From positions 1-38,349 of the IMG/VR virus record IMGVR_UViG_3300006875_002433: a DNA stretch of 38,349 bases. The stretch is one strand, 5' to 3'. Under the pieces are notes generated by a model, which worked only from the letters and a program-made list of their open reading frames with translations, did not search any database and was not told the origin of the DNA. Below, piece after piece: positions 4,359 through 38,349 of the stretch (the first letter of the stretch is position 1; every line of letters begins with the position of its first letter). Source of the stretch: a virus. The position numbers and the translations under genes are program-made.

Positions 4359-5340
4359 AATTTGACTCTATAAACCATACTGGTCGCCACCCATCATGCC
4401 CACTATTTAATTCCGGATTTGGTGGAGGTAAATATGAATATTTTTTTTCAATTAAATTAGATAATAATTTTAATCTATATGTATGTGGCCTTGACCCATC
4501 AGCATGAATAATATATGCATTATCTAAATATTGCCAAAAGTCATGTCTAATATATTCCCAATTAAAAATTGGATTTAGATTAAAAAAATTATCATCAGTT
4601 AAAAAACAAGATAAATAGTATTGATCAAAACACCATGTTTTATTATAGGGTCTATCCGGCTGTTTATATAAATCGGATAATTTTTGTGGTATAATTAAAA
4701 CCCCACCATTTGGTTGGATATAACAATCATTGTTTATTTGAAAATCAATTCGAACTTTTTTTGATTCAGTTTCCATTTCTTGATAATAGTTTGTTTGCTT
4801 TATTTTATCGTTTATTCTTAAAATTTCATTTTGATCATAACCTGATATTTTATCGTCTGGTGTAATCTTAAAAAGATTTGGACAATCATCTTTAATTATT
4901 ACGTCACAATCTAAATATAATGTTTTTTGATACTTTGATGTTACTTGAAAAAGTCTATATTTATTAAACATTGGATATTCTGGGAATTGATCTCCAGTTA
5001 ATTCAATGTAGTCTGCATTACATTTTTTTGCATATTTTATGATATTATTTTTTGTTATATTTAGTTGTTCTATTGCTATTTTATTTCCAGCGATGACACA
5101 AATAGCTACATCGTGTTTTTGTGGCGATATCTTATCAAAGAAATACCTAACTGGGGCATATCTTTCATCGTGTGATTTAATAAGTATTCTTGGTGTAGTT
5201 AAATCTTGATTAAAAAACCACTCTCTATCTAATGCCGATGTGCCTTTGCACCATTGAAAATTTGGGGGGTTATTAGTCATTTCTTTTTTAAAAGAACTGC
5301 ACCATCCGGCTTGTTCGCACTGACACTTTGAGAAATCCAT
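4342..5340 (-). CDS. GT-A fold glycosyltransferase (GT8-like)
   Basis: The 332-aa protein starts with a Cys-rich stretch (CQCEQAGWC ... CKG, residues 5-33), which may bind metal. A GT-A domain follows with FNKYRLFQVTSKYQKTLYLDCDVIIKD near residue 135, where DCD is the DxD motif that holds the metal and nucleotide-sugar. A later region PNGGVLIIPQKL and WCFDQYYLSCFL is typical of GT8-like enzymes. The ATG at 5340 is preceded by GGAG at good spacing. An upstream GTG would lie inside the terminator hairpin, so I reject it. It overlaps the sulfotransferase gene, pointing to a shared glycan-modifying step. Confidence 0.82.
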   Translation of the reverse strand: MDFSKCQCEQAGWCSSFKKEMTNNPPNFQWCKGTSALDREWFFNQDLTTPRILIKSHDERYAPVRYFFDKISPQKHDVAICVIAGNKIAIEQLNITKNNIIKYAKKCNADYIELTGDQFPEYPMFNKYRLFQVTSKYQKTLYLDCDVIIKDDCPNLFKITPDDKISGYDQNEILRINDKIKQTNYYQEMETESKKVRIDFQINNDCYIQPNGGVLIIPQKLSDLYKQPDRPYNKTWCFDQYYLSCFLTDDNFFNLNPIFNWEYIRHDFWQYLDNAYIIHADGSRPHTYRLKLLSNLIEKKYSYLPPPNPELNSGHDGWRPVWFIESNYDSNT

Positions 5341-5350
5341 AAATATCTCC

Positions 5351-5380
5351 AAAAAAATACCCACCTAAAAAGGTGGGTAT
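5351..5380 (-). terminator. Intrinsic terminator after the 110-aa gene
   Basis: A 10-bp perfect stem (ATACCCACCT / AGGTGGGTAT) with a four-base loop is followed on the minus strand by seven T residues. It lies 16 bases after the stop of the 110-aa gene, so it ends that transcription unit ahead of the glycosyltransferase gene. Confidence 0.9.
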
Positions 5381-5395
5381 TAAACACTTGGTTTA

Positions 5396-5728
5396 TTAGT
5401 TTGATGGTAATACGTCTGGTATTCCAAGTTGAGCAACTAGCGCCGCTTGTTCTGCTGGGCTCAATGCGTCGAACATAGCCAACGCATTCTTCTTCTTAAC
5501 GTCAAGAAGTTGCTTGTAGTAAGAGTCGCAAGCCGACTTGATTACATTCTCAAGATAGGTTTGAGGGGTAAACAATACCTTTAATTCCTTTGGTTCTTCG
5601 CCCTCTGGAAGGTTTGCATTGCTCTGCTCGATTTGAGCATTCTCTTGTTGGATGGGCTTGTTAGCCTCCATGCAAGCATACTCGACACCCCAATTTTGTT
5701 CTTGTGTTAATTCTGACAAATCAATCAT
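5396..5728 (-). CDS. Hypothetical acidic phage protein
   Basis: This 110-aa protein of unknown function is rich in Gln, Glu and Ala. It has a helical middle (KVLFTPQTYLENVIKSACDS, residues 49-68) and an Ala-rich C-terminal helix (NALAMFDALSPAEQAALVAQ). No signal peptide or membrane segment is visible. It is less AT-rich than its neighbours and is followed directly by a strong terminator, which suggests it is made in quantity. It lies 14 bases after the bacterioferritin-like gene. A minor virion or assembly role is possible but not shown. Confidence 0.65.
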   Translation of the reverse strand: MIDLSELTQEQNWGVEYACMEANKPIQQENAQIEQSNANLPEGEEPKELKVLFTPQTYLENVIKSACDSYYKQLLDVKKKNALAMFDALSPAEQAALVAQLGIPDVLPSN

Positions 5729-11453: not shown

Positions 11454-12893
11454 TCAGTCCTCTTCAAATGGTAAGTCTGAACCTTCTATGGCACCATCGT
11501 TGTTATTGCTAACTTTAAACTCATCTCTAGTTCTCAATTCTTTTAATGAAGATAATTCTCCAAACATTTTCATATTAATATAATTTCCATCTTCCATTCC
11601 AGGTCCATGTCTAGAAACAATGGGTACTAATTTTCTATTTCCAGCATTAGGCCCATCTTCCGCCAATTCTTCTGGAGACTTTATTTTAAAGATAGAAAAT
11701 GATGTACATAACCAAATCAATCTATCTGAACCACTAACGGCATCAGTGCTTTCTTTAGTAATACCATCGCGATTCAATTGAACAAACGATAGGCACGGGA
11801 AGTCATATTTAACGGCTAAGTTATGCAGCGAGGTGATCTGAAAACCTAAAGCTTGATACTCCTGGATATTATTAGTAATTGAACTAGAGGACATTAGTTT
11901 TAGATAATCATAAATTACCACACATTCGTTAGTTCTTCCGTTTTCATCTTGACCTACATTGTGGATTACCCACCTTTTAATAGTGTTCAAAATGCTTTCA
12001 AATGGCGCTCCAGCCACACTAACATATGTATAGGGTATGTTCTTTATTTTATCTATAGCAAGCCTTACTTTCAAAGTCTTTTCTTCATCTTCTGAGAATT
12101 TACCAGTAGATATTTCATTAATGGGCACACCACTAAGATTTGCCAATATTCTATTTAAATGATCCTCTTTTGACATTTCAGTATCTAACATCAATACTGG
12201 AACGCCAGATGAAGAAATATTTAAAGCTACATTATCAGCAAAAACACTTTTGCCAACCTTGGGTCTAGCTGACACAAGGTCTACACACTTTCTTCTAAGA
12301 CCGCCGCCAATAGCTGAGTCATATCTAGGAAAGCCAGTTGGTATACCTATTTGATCGCATTTATTTTCAAGCAAGAAATTGAAATAATCCTCAACATTGT
12401 CACCAATGTTTTGAGGCTTTTCTGATATATCATCTTCTCGTAGAAATCCAACTATGGGATTTTCTACCATGCCGATAATATCATCAATGCTCTCGTCACC
12501 ATTTATGGATTCGATATCTTTAGATATTTTTTCTGCTAATTTTTTAATCTTTCTTGCAAACTCAAACTTCTTAATTTGAGCTGCAAAATTGATTACATTA
12601 TTCTTTTTTATGGGAAACTGCATCAATGAATGAATATATTCTAATTCTTGCTTAGTATTTATTAATTCATAATGCCCCAGTTGTTGGGCTGCGGATAGAA
12701 TAGATGGTAAATCTACCTGAGACTCACTTTGTAGAATCTTCTCTATGCACTTATAAAGAATTTGATTATTATAATGACCAAAAGTTTGGTAATTAATAAT
12801 ATCAGATATTTCTACATACGCTTCAATTCCATATGTGAACAATCCAGCTAAGACTGCACGCTCTGCACCTACATCGGTGAGTTGTAAATTCAT
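11454..12893 (-). CDS. dnaB: Replicative DNA helicase, DnaB family
   Basis: The 479-aa protein has the DnaB layout. An N-terminal helical domain (about 5-130, with AERAVLAGLFTYG) is followed by a RecA-type motor with SARPKVGKSVFADNVALN (about 205-222, Walker A), VLMLDTEMSKEDHL (H1a Glu region), VVIYDYLKLM (Walker B) and SFVQLNRDG (motif H3 Gln). The C-terminus carries SRHGPGMEDG in place of the usual arginine-finger stretch and an acidic tail. It unwinds DNA ahead of the fork as a hexamer. Length is normal. No intein is present. It starts one base after the 134-aa zinc protein gene and precedes the primase group. Confidence 0.93.
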   Translation of the reverse strand: MNLQLTDVGAERAVLAGLFTYGIEAYVEISDIINYQTFGHYNNQILYKCIEKILQSESQVDLPSILSAAQQLGHYELINTKQELEYIHSLMQFPIKKNNVINFAAQIKKFEFARKIKKLAEKISKDIESINGDESIDDIIGMVENPIVGFLREDDISEKPQNIGDNVEDYFNFLLENKCDQIGIPTGFPRYDSAIGGGLRRKCVDLVSARPKVGKSVFADNVALNISSSGVPVLMLDTEMSKEDHLNRILANLSGVPINEISTGKFSEDEEKTLKVRLAIDKIKNIPYTYVSVAGAPFESILNTIKRWVIHNVGQDENGRTNECVVIYDYLKLMSSSSITNNIQEYQALGFQITSLHNLAVKYDFPCLSFVQLNRDGITKESTDAVSGSDRLIWLCTSFSIFKIKSPEELAEDGPNAGNRKLVPIVSRHGPGMEDGNYINMKMFGELSSLKELRTRDEFKVSNNNDGAIEGSDLPFEED

Positions 12894-13787: not shown

Positions 13788-14166
13788 AATTAAAAACTAT
13801 CAAATTTATATTATTTAGTTCACACCAGCTTTCTTTTACTGAGTCTCTTCTTTTTTGATCTAAAAATCCAGCTTTAGTTTTATGGAAAAATTGACAATAT
13901 TCATAATGTTGTCTTCCATGAACTTCTATACCTAGATTAAATGTTGGAACGAGAAAGTCAAGGAATAGGACGGATTTTTTACTGGGGCAGGTGGAACCTG
14001 GAAGTTTAACCTCTTCTAAAATCAAATATCCACAAAAGACATCCTTTAATAAATCCCTTGCCATTATGTGAAATGAAGATCTTTTTTTTCTAGTGTCATT
14101 ATTTTTAATTACATATTTTTTTGAATCAATAATATATACTTTATTATTTAATCCCTTTACTTTCAT
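13741..14166 (-). CDS. PD-(D/E)XK-type endonuclease-like protein
   Basis: The 141-aa protein shows LFLDFLVPTFNLGIEVHGRQ near residue 68, where the Asp and the Glu of EVHGRQH match a PD-(D/E)XK nuclease core of the VSR/DUF559 kind. QKRRDSVKESWCELNNINLI and FNYADD follow. Enzymes of this shape cut DNA, and in phages they serve repair or recombination. It lies directly after recA with an ATGA overlap and before the 163-aa protein, so a recombination role is likely. The family assignment rests on motif pattern only. Confidence 0.65.
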   Translation of the reverse strand: MKVKGLNNKVYIIDSKKYVIKNNDTRKKRSSFHIMARDLLKDVFCGYLILEEVKLPGSTCPSKKSVLFLDFLVPTFNLGIEVHGRQHYEYCQFFHKTKAGFLDQKRRDSVKESWCELNNINLIVFNYADDIQIWRKQLECI

Positions 14167-16313
14167 AGTATCTCTCTGATTTGATTATAAATATAATCTT
14201 TCAAATCTTCATTTTCGGTCAGGAAATCTGTAACTTTTTGTATGCCCTGAAATCTAAAAAACTTTTGAACGGCCTCATCATTATTCAGGTCTATATCATT
14301 TTTAATTAAAATGTTTTTAATGGCTGGATCATCTTTGTTGTCTATCGCAGTAGATATTTCGTACCACGCTCCGCTTTTCTTTATCATACTAAATTGACTA
14401 GCTAATTGAGCTATTTCTTGGGCTTCATCTATACCAACGCCATATCTAATCCATGACTCGGCTGTTGTCATGGGCTTTCCACCTGCGGCAGATGTCTTTA
14501 TTATCCAATTGGCAATTTGTCCAACGTGTGGGCCAGTAGACTTTTCATCTTCATTTACAGACGCCCCAGAAGCTAGCCATTTACCTCTATGTGTAATTAC
14601 CATATTGGTTCCAGCTTGATATTGCATCATATTTCCACAGTCAGCAATTTTTTGTGGCGCGAATCTTGATCCGCTTGTGTTAGCTATATTGTGGGTGATA
14701 AATATTAGAATAGCTTTATTTCTAGCTACATCACCACTTATTCTTTTAAAGAACATTGACAGTAGTCTTGGTAATGAATTTCTAACACCAGTTCTGATCT
14801 CACCGTCTAATTCTTCTTTGGGAACCATATTAGAAGCTGAATCAATTATAGCAACCAAGTCTGGGCTGCTTTTAACATAAATCTCAAGGGCATTCAAATA
14901 CGTTTCAGCGGAAACTAGTGGGCATTCATCGGTTGATTGTACTATTTTTATTTTTGACGGATCTAGTCCCTTGATACCAATAAAATTTTCTTTTGTTATT
15001 CTGCCTTCAGTATTGAAATAAATAACATTCTTGCCTAGAGCTTGTGCTTTTGCGGCAAAATATAAAGCAGTGGTAGTATTATGAGTAACATTAAAATTAT
15101 CAGTTAAATAAAGATGATCTGGATGATCAATAAAAATACATTGAGTTTCTTCTTTTCTGACAAGTTCAACTTTTACTATAGTTTTAAATAGTTCTGGTTT
15201 TATTCGTTTTGTTAAAAACTTTTTACGATTAATTTTAAATAATTGATTAATATCATCTCCAGAGATATACAATCTAAAAGATTTAAACTCTTTTCCGTTG
15301 CATTTTGTCATTCTTTCTTTTATTTTAACCATATAACCAAGTGATCGTAATAATTCTGAAACATGAATACTTAAAGCATAAGACGCAGTGCTATATTCTG
15401 CTGATTTACCATTGTCATTATAACCATCAGTATCCATTAAGCCACGAACTAATTCAAATCTATCATTTATAGATGAATAAAGATAATCTTGTGGAATAAA
15501 TTTTGAATGTGATTTTTTACCCATAAGATTTAATGTTCTTAATTTATTAGTTAAATTATTTATATTTTTTCCATATCCAACTATAGAATAGTCATATTTA
15601 GATTTATGATGAATTTCCAGATCATTATCTTTAGCGTAATTTTTAAAAGCTTCTAAAATTTCATCATCTGCTGTAGTAATAATAGGAGTTCCTTGTGATA
15701 GTCCTCCATCTCCGATTAAACATCCTAGTATATATGGATCTATTTCAAGATTTTTACAGTCAAAATAAACCGGTTTACAAATAGGAATCTTCCATTTTGG
15801 TCTATCGCTATAGAATAAACCCTCTTCTATTATTTGTCTTAAAGGTAAGACTACCCACTCGTCATTTCTTCCATGATAATTTTTACAAACTTTCCATAAA
15901 TGATCTATACCACATTCTGCAAATGTGCCATCGTTAAAAGATATTCTATAAACATCTTTTATACCTTGAGGGTAAATTCCATTTATTCTTGCGGTTTCTC
16001 CGCCATTTGGAGTACAAACTATATCTCCAATTTTTAATGAGCCCATTTTTCTTGGCCCATCTGGAGTATAGACGATTGCTGATAAAGGTTGATCTTTTCC
16101 AGTCTTTGGATCGCCAGTCATTACTACGCAACTTCCCTCTCTTAGCCCACCACCAAGGGCTATATCTAAAGATGGAGATATTCCTATCTTTTTTAATTCT
16201 TGAAGATCTTCTAAGACCTTCTCTCCACTCTCTACGATATTTCCAAATTTAGAATTAATTTGATTGCTAATAACATCATCTTCAAATACTTTACTCTTCA
16301 GTTTCTTCGCCAT
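14163..16313 (-). CDS. recA: RecA/UvsX recombinase interrupted by an intein
   Basis: The 716-aa reading frame encodes a RecA-family recombinase of about 377 aa with a 339-aa intein inside. The recombinase N-terminus reads ISPSLDIALGGGL, and the Walker A P-loop is split: GDPKTGK (residues 67-73) is followed by the intein and then TTTALYFAAK (from 413). Walker B is LVAIIDSA, and LLSMFFKRISGDVARNKAIL and FITHN follow in the usual order. The protein promotes strand exchange in phage recombination-dependent replication. ATP binding cannot occur until the intein leaves, because the insertion breaks the GK-T motif. It is followed by the nuclease-like gene with an ATGA overlap. Confidence 0.93.
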   Translation of the reverse strand: MAKKLKSKVFEDDVISNQINSKFGNIVESGEKVLEDLQELKKIGISPSLDIALGGGLREGSCVVMTGDPKTGKDQPLSAIVYTPDGPRKMGSLKIGDIVCTPNGGETARINGIYPQGIKDVYRISFNDGTFAECGIDHLWKVCKNYHGRNDEWVVLPLRQIIEEGLFYSDRPKWKIPICKPVYFDCKNLEIDPYILGCLIGDGGLSQGTPIITTADDEILEAFKNYAKDNDLEIHHKSKYDYSIVGYGKNINNLTNKLRTLNLMGKKSHSKFIPQDYLYSSINDRFELVRGLMDTDGYNDNGKSAEYSTASYALSIHVSELLRSLGYMVKIKERMTKCNGKEFKSFRLYISGDDINQLFKINRKKFLTKRIKPELFKTIVKVELVRKEETQCIFIDHPDHLYLTDNFNVTHNTTTALYFAAKAQALGKNVIYFNTEGRITKENFIGIKGLDPSKIKIVQSTDECPLVSAETYLNALEIYVKSSPDLVAIIDSASNMVPKEELDGEIRTGVRNSLPRLLSMFFKRISGDVARNKAILIFITHNIANTSGSRFAPQKIADCGNMMQYQAGTNMVITHRGKWLASGASVNEDEKSTGPHVGQIANWIIKTSAAGGKPMTTAESWIRYGVGIDEAQEIAQLASQFSMIKKSGAWYEISTAIDNKDDPAIKNILIKNDIDLNNDEAVQKFFRFQGIQKVTDFLTENEDLKDYIYNQIREIL
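15078..16094 (-). mobile_element. Class 3-type intein with LAGLIDADG endonuclease in recA
   Basis: The intein occupies residues 74-412 of the recA frame. It starts Asp-Gln-Pro-Leu (DQPLSAIVYTPDG), so it lacks the usual Cys or Ser at position 1. It has the class 3 signature: Trp140 at the end of block B (GIDHLW), Cys392 in block F (QCIFIDHPDH) and Thr410 in block G (NFNVTHN), followed by extein Thr413. Class 3 inteins use the block F Cys as first nucleophile. Two LAGLIDADG motifs are present, ILGCLIGDGG (about 195-204) and LVRGLMDTDG (about 288-297), so an active homing endonuclease is likely. Confidence 0.88.
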
Positions 16314-34696: not shown

Positions 34697-34739
34697 CTTT
34701 TATCCTTTCCCATCTGTTGCCAAAAATAATTATTATAAT

Positions 34740-34812
34740 AGGGCTAGTAGGACTCGAACCTACAATCGACAGATTAGAAATCTGTAGCTCTTTCCAATTA
34801 AGCTATAGCCCC
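34740..34812 (-). tRNA. tRNA-Arg (anticodon TCT)
   Basis: A 73-nt cloverleaf has acceptor GGGGCTA/TAGCCCT (one G-T), D arm GCTT/GAGC, anticodon arm ACAGA-TTTCTAA-TCTGT (TCT, reading AGA), and T arm GTAGG-TTCGAGT-CCTAC. No CCA is encoded. It begins three bases after the tmRNA coding piece, so they are probably cut from one transcript. Confidence 0.93.
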
Positions 34813-34814
34813 AT

Positions 34815-35089
34815 ATGCCAGTTTGGGCGATAGGGTACTGGCAAACCCCAGACAGCTTACGCTGCCAATGCGAGAACTTCGTCTGCACTTACAATTTAAT
34901 CGAGTTTTTAAGTGGCCTCTCGATCAACCACTACATGCAGTTACTACTTACGCAAGCAATCGAAACTTTTCAGGCCCGTCAGGAATATACTTGGTTAAGT
35001 ATACTTTTGGTGGACCTGCCGATCATTGCAAATCGGGTCTTGCTCTGTTTCAATAATAACATCTACATGTTTATCTGGCAATGCCAGAG
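34815..35089 (-). ncRNA. ssrA: Circularly permuted two-piece tmRNA
   Basis: The gene has the acceptor piece first (about 35089-35008) and the coding piece second (34977 to about 34815), with a 30-base spacer (34978-35007). The acceptor piece ends CAGGTCC-A-CCA and pairs with GGGCCTG at the start of the coding piece, seven pairs including G3-U70, the alanine identity element. A T arm, CCGAT/ATCGG with an 8-base loop, precedes the acceptor. After GGGCCTG comes AAAAGTTTCGATTG, like the tmRNA GATTCGAC region. Pseudoknot PK1 (AGTGG/CCACT with ATCGAG/CTCGAT) precedes the tag. The tag stop sits in a GGCAGC-GTAA-GCTGTC hairpin (P5). P2 can form from TTGCT and AGCAA. It rescues stalled ribosomes with SmpB, which is not in the window. 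Confidence 0.9.
34857..34886 (-). other. tmRNA tag reading frame (ADEVLALAA)
   Basis: Within the tmRNA coding piece, GCA-GAC-GAA-GTT-CTC-GCA-TTG-GCA-GCG-TAA encodes ADEVLALAA and stop, with TAAGT before the resume codon (compare TAGTC in E. coli). The ending LAA is the ClpXP-type degradation signal. With the alanine from charged tmRNA, the tag would be A-ADEVLALAA. The stop codon lies in the P5 hairpin loop. Confidence 0.9.
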
Positions 35090-35090
35090 T

Positions 35091-35190
35091 GGGAAAGGCT
35101 GGACTCGAACCAGCATCAGGTTCCGACTCAGGAACGTAACGGCCATTGTCACTTATTCTGTTGATACAGCGTCTTTATCATCACTTTCCC
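35091..35190 (-). tRNA. Atypical tRNA-like gene, identity unclear
   Basis: A 100-base RNA has a perfect 7-bp acceptor stem GGGAAAG/CTTTCCC and a perfect T arm GCTGG-TTCGAGT-CCAGC. It also has a 5-bp arm GTTCC/GGAAC that would serve as a long variable arm. The anticodon-like hairpin GTGAC-AATGGCC-GTTAC (putative TGG) lacks the expected U33, and about 31 bases lie between acceptor and this hairpin instead of about 19. It ends directly before the tmRNA. It could be a damaged or unusual class II tRNA, a tRNA-like element, or part of the tmRNA precursor. Confidence 0.5.
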
Positions 35191-37578: not shown

Positions 37579-38349
37579 TCAAATTAAAATATCTTTTATA
37601 ACTTTACCGTTATCCACTATCTCAACGGGCCTTTCTCCAGGCGCCATTAACTCTTTATCCGCCACAATACCTAATAGGTGGTACATTGTATACGCAAAAT
37701 CTTCCGGTGATACTGGGTTATTTTCCGGCTCTGATGCGGTAGAATCCGTAGCCCCATAGATTAATCCACGTTTCACACCGCCACCGGCCAGTAGCGTGCT
37801 AAACGCTTTGGGCCAATGATCACGCCCTGCGTCTGCGTTGATTTTGGGCGTTCTCCCAAATTCACTACTTACCATGATTAGAGTCGTGTCTAATAAGCCG
37901 CGCTCATCTAGATCGCTAATAAGGGCCGTTAAAGCCTTATCTAGAGGTGGAGCTTGAGTTTTCATCGCACCATTGATCCCTTGGTGCATATCCCAGCCGC
38001 CATAAGTTAAAGTTACCATTCTAACGCCAGCCTCAACTAATCTCCTAGCCATTAACATTCTTTGACCGGCTTGATTTTTACCATATCGTTCTTTAATTTT
38101 TTCATCTTCTGCTTTTAAATTAAATGCTTCCCTAGCTTTTGGCGAAGTAATTAAACTAAAAGCCTGATCATAAAAACTATTCATAGCTTTCATTTTATCA
38201 GCATGGGGATTTTTATAAAAGAAATCTTGATTGACTATAGCTAGGGCGGACTTCCTTCTTTCAAATCTATCTAGATCAATACCTTCTGGCAGAGACAGGT
38301 CTTGCACCTGGAAATTCTCATTTGCAGGGTCTGAACCAAGACTGAACGG
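37579..38349 (-). CDS. DUF1501-type protein, 5' end outside the window
   Basis: The open frame runs to the right edge (256 residues visible). It begins PFSLGSDPANENFQ then VQDLSLPEGIDLDRFERRK and contains AGVRMVTLTYGGWDMHQGIN, LDERGLLDTTLIMVSSEFGR and a TPKINADAGRDHWPKAFSTL region, ending in VEIVDNGKVIKDILI. This matches the C-terminal part of DUF1501 proteins, which are abundant in Planctomycetota and related to alkaline-phosphatase-like or sulfatase folds. The N-terminal part, usually with a twin-arginine signal, is missing. It is nine bases from a phage gene, on the same strand. Confidence 0.87.
   Translation of the reverse strand, partial: PFSLGSDPANENFQVQDLSLPEGIDLDRFERRKSALAIVNQDFFYKNPHADKMKAMNSFYDQAFSLITSPKAREAFNLKAEDEKIKERYGKNQAGQRMLMARRLVEAGVRMVTLTYGGWDMHQGINGAMKTQAPPLDKALTALISDLDERGLLDTTLIMVSSEFGRTPKINADAGRDHWPKAFSTLLAGGGVKRGLIYGATDSTASEPENNPVSPEDFAYTMYHLLGIVADKELMAPGERPVEIVDNGKVIKDILI

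Follow-up and report, generated by a model that had tools for sequence, protein, structure and literature searches.

A circularly permuted tmRNA gene with a planctomycete-like core in a lineage of uncultured aquatic phages

Circularly permuted tmRNAs, in which the acceptor piece is encoded before the coding piece, have been described from three bacterial clades and from some organelles. How a one-piece tmRNA becomes a two-piece tmRNA has so far been guessed from ancient events. Phages also carry such genes: in 18,146 phage genomes, 53 of 133 unique phage tmRNA structures were two-piece, with 50 from marine or aquatic samples (PMC9004378). One example is Melnitz, a phage of OM43, whose ssrA was described as alphaproteobacterial (PMC9004378).

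We analyzed a 38-kb virus record from IMG/VR (IMGVR_UViG_3300006875_002433; all 38,349 nucleotides, hereafter the window). As in Melnitz and its pelagiphage and cyanophage relatives, the tmRNA is encoded by a marine or aquatic phage, is permuted, and lies near tRNA genes. The lineage of the window differs from those phages in having a planctomycete-like core, tags of 9 amino acids, a CCA that is mostly unencoded, and near relatives with one-piece tmRNAs. The original prediction, which was made from the letters of the window, held that it is unusual for phages to carry permuted tmRNAs. Given the 53 published structures and the many permuted genes in IMG/VR, that was overstated: phages with permuted tmRNAs are already known, and what is new is this lineage. 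The prediction also missed the planctomycete-like core and the one-piece forms in close phage relatives. The combination worth attention is a permuted tmRNA that looks planctomycete-like and close phage relatives that have one-piece forms.

The permuted gene and its structure

The minus strand of the window encodes a circularly permuted, two-piece tmRNA at 35089-34816 (Table 1). Positions 35070-34857 match Rfam's model of permuted tmRNAs (RF04321, tmRNA_permuted) with 68 bits (E = 3.4e-11), as compared to a cut-off of 47 bits, and the match covers the whole model. The sequences behind RF04321 are alpha, beta, and cyano, with no planctomycete among them (PMC11915505). The window gene shares the acceptor-before-coding order with the alphaproteobacterial model (RF01849, alpha_tmRNA) as well, but its match to that model (35088-34849) scores 49.4 bits, slightly below the cut-off of 50. 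The fold of the precursor RNA beats 200/200 dinucleotide shuffles (z = -4.4). When run on the window, ARAGORN made no call for the permuted tmRNA; the T loop of 8 nt and the divergence of the core may explain this.

Table 1. Features of the tmRNA locus (positions in the window)
Feature	Position	Strand	Basis
tRNA-Arg(TCT), directly downstream of the tmRNA	34738..34813	-	ARAGORN; Rfam 70.3 bits
Permuted tmRNA gene; precursor = acceptor half + intervening segment + coding half (34977-34816)	34816..35089	-	RF04321, RF01849, covariation
5' hairpin TCTGGC-ATT-GCCAGA, opening the acceptor half	35074..35088	-	sequence
Acceptor half: AAACATGTAG, P2 3' strands, T arm, acceptor 3' strand CAGGTCC, A73, CCA (35010-35008)	35008..35073	-	
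Intervening segment, 30 nt, predicted to be removed	34978..35007	-	between CCA and G1
5' end of coding half: G1 (34977), acceptor 5' strand GGGCCTG, D-loop-like part, P2 5' strands	34933..34977	-	
Pseudoknot PK1, AGTGG/CCACT + TTGATCGAG/CTCGATTAA	34896..34932	-	helices 7 and 8
Tag frame ADEVLALAA (codons 34886-34860) + stop TAA (34859-34857)	34857..34886	-	sequence; relatives' tags also 9 aa
P5 hairpin GGCAGC-GTAA-GCTGTC, stop in loop	34851..34866	-	helices 9 and 10
3' pseudoknot PK2, GGG/CCC + GCCAGT/ACTGGC	34817..34849	-	helices 11 and 12
tRNA-like element, directly upstream of the tmRNA	35091..35190	-	fold, -28.8 kcal/mol

Most of the anatomy in the original prediction holds up. The acceptor piece does precede the coding piece on phage DNA, and the acceptor stem (GGGCCTG/CAGGTCC) has 7 base pairs including G3-U70, followed by an encoded CCA. 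In the coding half, PK1 precedes an open tag frame whose last residues are LAA and whose stop lies in P5, with PK2 after that; PK1, the tag ADEVLALAA, and the P5 hairpin with the tag's stop were all predicted and are borne out by the sequence and by covarying helices. The region where a cut was expected lies between the CCA and G1, in agreement with the results from the tools. There is a T arm, as predicted, but its loop (TTGCAATG) has 8 nucleotides instead of the 7 found in most relatives; 7 is the usual length but not a strict one. As for the checks that accompanied the prediction, Rfam's permuted model scored above its cut-off, ARAGORN missed the window gene, and a search for SmpB was run (see below).

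To see if the structure is conserved, we aligned 12 permuted genes, including the window's, with the intervening segments taken out. For the structure named in the window, 88.5% of cells are paired, and 42 of the 67 pairs have changes on both sides. None of 500 shuffles reach the observed covariation values, and if the partners are slid by one base, pairing falls to about 40%. (The tested structure was drawn from the window's row of the alignment, which biases the test somewhat in its favor, but this bias does not explain the changes on both sides.) The acceptor stem is 100% paired, with G3-U70 invariant in 12/12 genes. In PK1, helices 7 and 8 are paired in 100% and 91% of cells, and 11 of their 14 pairs changed on both sides. 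The 5' hairpin resembles hairpins in most relatives (by eye), and only 59% of cells are paired in this part, where the alignment is poor. ARAGORN called seven of the relatives as permuted tmRNAs, with the same tags. Together, the RF04321 match and the covariation rule out chance or artefact as the source of the window's tmRNA.

The gene was also predicted to sit between two tRNA genes. The downstream neighbor is a clear tRNA-Arg(TCT), while the upstream neighbor is tRNA-like but is not called by ARAGORN or by Rfam's tRNA model. It folds into acceptor, D, anticodon, variable, and T arms; the anticodon loop, AATGGCC, lacks U33; and the best we found was a weak match to tRNA-Sec (19.4 bits, with a cut-off of 47). 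From its fold, this element is probably a degenerate class II tRNA.

Permuted and one-piece genes in one phage lineage

The window encodes a DNA polymerase, DnaB, primase, RecA with an intein, ribonucleotide reductase, PhoH, dUTPase, ThyX, and more. Searches by DNA, tmRNA, or a lineage protein (A3) found no close cultured relatives, but searches with DnaB and A3 found hundreds of related contigs of up to 192 kb, and the window phage is a member of a lineage of uncultured aquatic phages. We dropped a metallophosphoesterase as a lineage marker because its relatives (L084-L093) are other phages without a tmRNA. The RecA/UvsX-like gene (14163-16313, minus strand) has a LAGLIDADG intein (PF14528) in the Walker A motif, as does a relative (L095, 5810-7855). 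The intein starts with Asp and keeps the W, C, and T residues of class 3 inteins, a class that we assigned by eye.

RF04321 scored above its cut-off in 9/50 and 2/42 of the related contigs that we searched, and contig L020 (G011) adds one more. The lineage's permuted genes comprise 11 contigs above the cut-off and 3 split ones. The intervening segment varies from 5 to 596 nucleotides among relatives. G092 and G093 have 596 nt between the acceptor piece and the coding piece that follows it, a gap that holds a gene for an HNH-type endonuclease (PHROG 3322, E = 2.3e-21); G098 has the same coding piece. In G093 (L412, 4401-5100; G092 is alike), the HNH-type open reading frame overlaps the start of the tmRNA's coding piece, and genes for tRNA-Gln and tRNA-Leu lie just upstream of the split tmRNA. 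In L266, the intervening segment (about 123 nt) includes a T-arm-like stretch, GAGGTTCAAATCCTC, which is perhaps the remnant of a tRNA gene between the halves. We saw no tmRNA in many related contigs, most of which are fragments.

Other members of the lineage have one-piece tmRNAs: RF00023 scored above its cut-off in 11/48 related contigs. Nine of these genes are full-size (351-358 nt), and two (L377 and L383) are reduced, at 268-270 nt. The modules of the reduced genes are those of the permuted genes, arranged the opposite way: G1-PK1-tag-P5-PK2, then a linker, then hairpin-AAACATG-P2'-T arm-acceptor. Their tags have 10 amino acids. Thus, permuted and one-piece tmRNA genes coexist in one phage lineage. 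In the DnaB tree, the short pair L377/L383 (support 100/99) falls inside a 20-member clade (100/98) in which seven permuted genes occur; the full-size one-piece clade is the sister of this clade; and permuted genes reappear on deeper branches. The tree requires at least three changes of tmRNA form. It was midpoint-rooted for drawing, and genes may move between phages, so the direction of change cannot be read from it.

We also looked for similar genes across IMG/VR. A single core pattern matched 82 stretches, about 49 of which ARAGORN called as tmRNAs, while a tag pattern found nothing. Elsewhere in the analysis, we set aside L270 and L273 as false or weak matches. In L002, L010, and other permuted tmRNAs from IMG/VR, a 3' PK2 element of the GTCCTTATTATCCAA or GTACCTGGCAACAGAA type recurs across unrelated phages. 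This recurrent PK2 element may correspond to the glutamine riboswitch that was described for the 3' domain of Melnitz ssrA. An Rfam search found no glutamine riboswitch in the window or in eight related loci.

Planctomycete affinity and the origin of the permuted order

We initially assumed that the core was of alphaproteobacterial origin, but blastn, tag-free profiles, and a tree test all rejected this. With blastn, the coding segments of 11 phage genes score 55-100 bits against one-piece tmRNAs from the Pirellulaceae and at most 34 bits against alphaproteobacteria. Using profiles without the tag codons, planctomycete profiles were the top match for 11/12 permuted genes; the exception, L020, was tied with other permuted phage genes. 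Alphaproteobacterial profiles gave scores of 4-31 bits, versus 42-96 bits for planctomycete profiles (22 for the window). Among these genes, the window's diverges most and has a small margin (22 bits on the Pirellulaceae profile versus 11.9-16.5 on others). In AU tests, placing the phage and alphaproteobacterial genes in one clade was rejected (p = 0.0066), a clade of phage and planctomycete genes was not rejected (p = 0.37), and a clade of all permuted genes was narrowly not rejected (p = 0.061).

The tags and ends of the genes show the same affinity. The phage tags have 9 amino acids (ADEVLALAA, ADESLALAA, ADASLALAA, AKPSFALAA, AEPSFALAA, VEENFALAA, GVENYAMAA, and DVGNCVLAA). Pirellulaceae tags mostly have 9 as well and at times begin with Val, or with Gly elsewhere in the Planctomycetota, so Val and Gly as first tag codons are common to the phages and the Planctomycetota. 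The alphaproteobacterial tags that we sampled have 10-13 amino acids, and almost all begin with AN. The acceptor half carries TAARCATGTAGACG or close variants in the phages, as in the Pirellulaceae. CCA is unencoded in 27/27 Pirellulaceae genes and in 9/12 phage genes; the window's gene, which encodes it, is an exception. For example, the one-piece tmRNA of Pirellulaceae (L274/L276) aligns with the coding segment of phage L262 at 79% identity across 128 nt, has the tag ADESLALAA that is found in several phages, and shares the acceptor motif and the unencoded CCA, but it is about 360 nt long, in one piece, and has other pseudoknots past the tag. Overall, the window's gene has its best core match, its 9-residue tag, and TAARCATGTAGACG in common with the Planctomycetota type but not the one-piece order, while it falls short of the alphaproteobacterial type (RF01849), both in score and in the rejected clade.

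Planctomycetota themselves have one-piece genes. A one-piece tmRNA scored above the cut-off in 47/60 Pirellulaceae, and just 1/294 Planctomycetota genomes had a permuted match above the cut-off. That match (L286) lies on a contig of an unrelated phage in a Planctomycetota MAG, so we rejected it as a planctomycete tmRNA. A search for the tag-coding stretch in genomes from 84,980 species matched only two contigs, one of them from a phage (L275) and the other from a Pirellulaceae MAG that has a one-piece tmRNA with the tag ADESLALAA. L275 was binned with an Aliivibrio MAG. Phage contigs with permuted tmRNAs in bacterial MAGs, such as L286 and L275, are a source of false records there. A clue to the host that is independent of the tmRNA comes from another gene in the window: the gene for a DUF1501 protein (37579-38349, minus strand) is 61-63% identical to its best matches in the Planctomycetota and had no match in 60 Pseudomonadota genomes, in a search that lacked a positive control. 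DUF1501 is rare in phages: a search of 50,697 phage records gave a single weak match. L020 has a relative (4422-5645). Given the planctomycete-type core (acceptor half, P2, PK1, and tag style), the sequences suggest that the host is most likely a planctomycete with a one-piece tmRNA of its own.

Our main reading, to which we give a probability of about 0.75, is that the core derives from a Planctomycetota-type tmRNA, that the order changed within the phage lineage, and that the gene works. The order could have changed by permutation of a one-piece gene, or host-like sequence could have moved into a permuted frame. The first route is a permutation that arose independently of those in the three known bacterial clades, within one lineage of planctomycete phages: there, a planctomycete-type one-piece tmRNA would have been captured, reduced to two pseudoknots, and permuted, with the full-size and reduced one-piece relatives persisting and an HNH gene lodging in some intervening segments. 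We put this version at somewhat less than even odds. The second route is a candidate of about the same weight, also at less than even odds: the frame and PK2 would come from another permuted phage tmRNA, recombination would have swapped in planctomycete-like sequence for the acceptor and coding core, and the short one-piece genes would have been re-joined. The window's PK2 does resemble that of other permuted phage tmRNAs (scores of 17-20, with shuffles at 11 or below), is less like that of the reduced one-piece genes, and is unlike that of full-size one-piece or planctomycete genes, which suggests that the gene may be a mosaic. The nesting of the short pair within a permuted clade and the AU result for all permuted genes fit recombination as well. 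But both halves of the core are planctomycete-like and in permuted order, so a mosaic needs two replacements. Also, two-piece tmRNAs generally retain only PK1 and PK2 (PMC3985003), so the likeness of PK2 could be convergent. Re-joining has a precedent in the mitochondrial tmRNA of Jakoba libera, which was re-permuted (PMC11915505). (That is an organelle gene, and mitochondrial tmRNAs seem to have no tag frame.)

A straightforward capture of a permuted gene from an alphaproteobacterial host would account for the identical gene order and for the RF01849 scores, which are almost at the cut-off for the window and above it for L020, L261, and L266. However, the AU test, the profile scores, and the tag length, TAARCATGTAGACG motif, and unencoded CCA, which are unlike those of alphaproteobacteria, largely refute it, and we consider it very unlikely.

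Proposed function and significance

By analogy with known tmRNAs, the window's element is most likely a working tmRNA that uses the host's alanyl-tRNA synthetase and SmpB and carries a host-style degradation tag. The transcript would begin with the acceptor half. The 30-nt segment would be cut out by the host's RNase P and 3'-end processing. This would yield two pieces, an acceptor piece with CCA at its end and a coding piece with G1 as its first nucleotide, which would stay joined through pairing in the acceptor stem and helix P2. Alanyl-tRNA synthetase would recognize G3-U70 and charge the tmRNA, SmpB and EF-Tu from the host would deliver it to stalled ribosomes, and ADEVLALAA would be appended so that host proteases remove the product. 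During infection, the phage's tmRNA may supplement or replace the host's and free ribosomes from damaged mRNA; the benefit may be the recycling of ribosomes while mRNA is being broken down. We found no match to SmpB (PF01668) in the 38-kb window or in 39 other contigs with permuted-tmRNA patterns, which are mostly fragments, so the host's SmpB is presumably used. Tags in the style of the likely host suggest that the phage employs the host's adaptors and proteases, rather than evading them. L020, which has a permuted tmRNA, also encodes a ClpP-family protease (12083-12772; PF00574, E = 8.5e-20), which could serve in head maturation or in tag-directed degradation.

Two other readings start from the divergence of the window's copy. 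The RNA might be a decoy that is charged or bound by SmpB and mainly blocks the host's trans-translation, as was suggested for the tmRNA of mycobacteriophage DS6A, which has only the tRNA-like domain (PMC4131195). The T arm and core are divergent in the window, and that phage inhibitor is a precedent, but a decoy would not need the tag frame with its stop, PK1, or P5, all of which are intact in 12/12 genes with compensatory changes, so we view a decoy as quite unlikely. Or the gene might be decaying and without function in this phage: no other gene of the set has diverged as far, and the tRNA-like element upstream looks degenerate. Yet all of the named pairs (67/67) form in the window's copy, and the acceptor stem, CCA, tag, and stop are intact, which makes decay very unlikely.

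If the gene works as a tmRNA, infected cells would contain two kinds of rescue RNA, since the likely host phylum has one-piece tmRNAs: the host's own and, from these phages, a two-piece RNA bearing a host-style tag. The tag and core also provide a host marker that covers a large set of uncultured phages from aquatic samples. And because both forms occur in one phage lineage, along with a reduced one-piece form that has the same modules, the steps of the rearrangement can be compared at high similarity.
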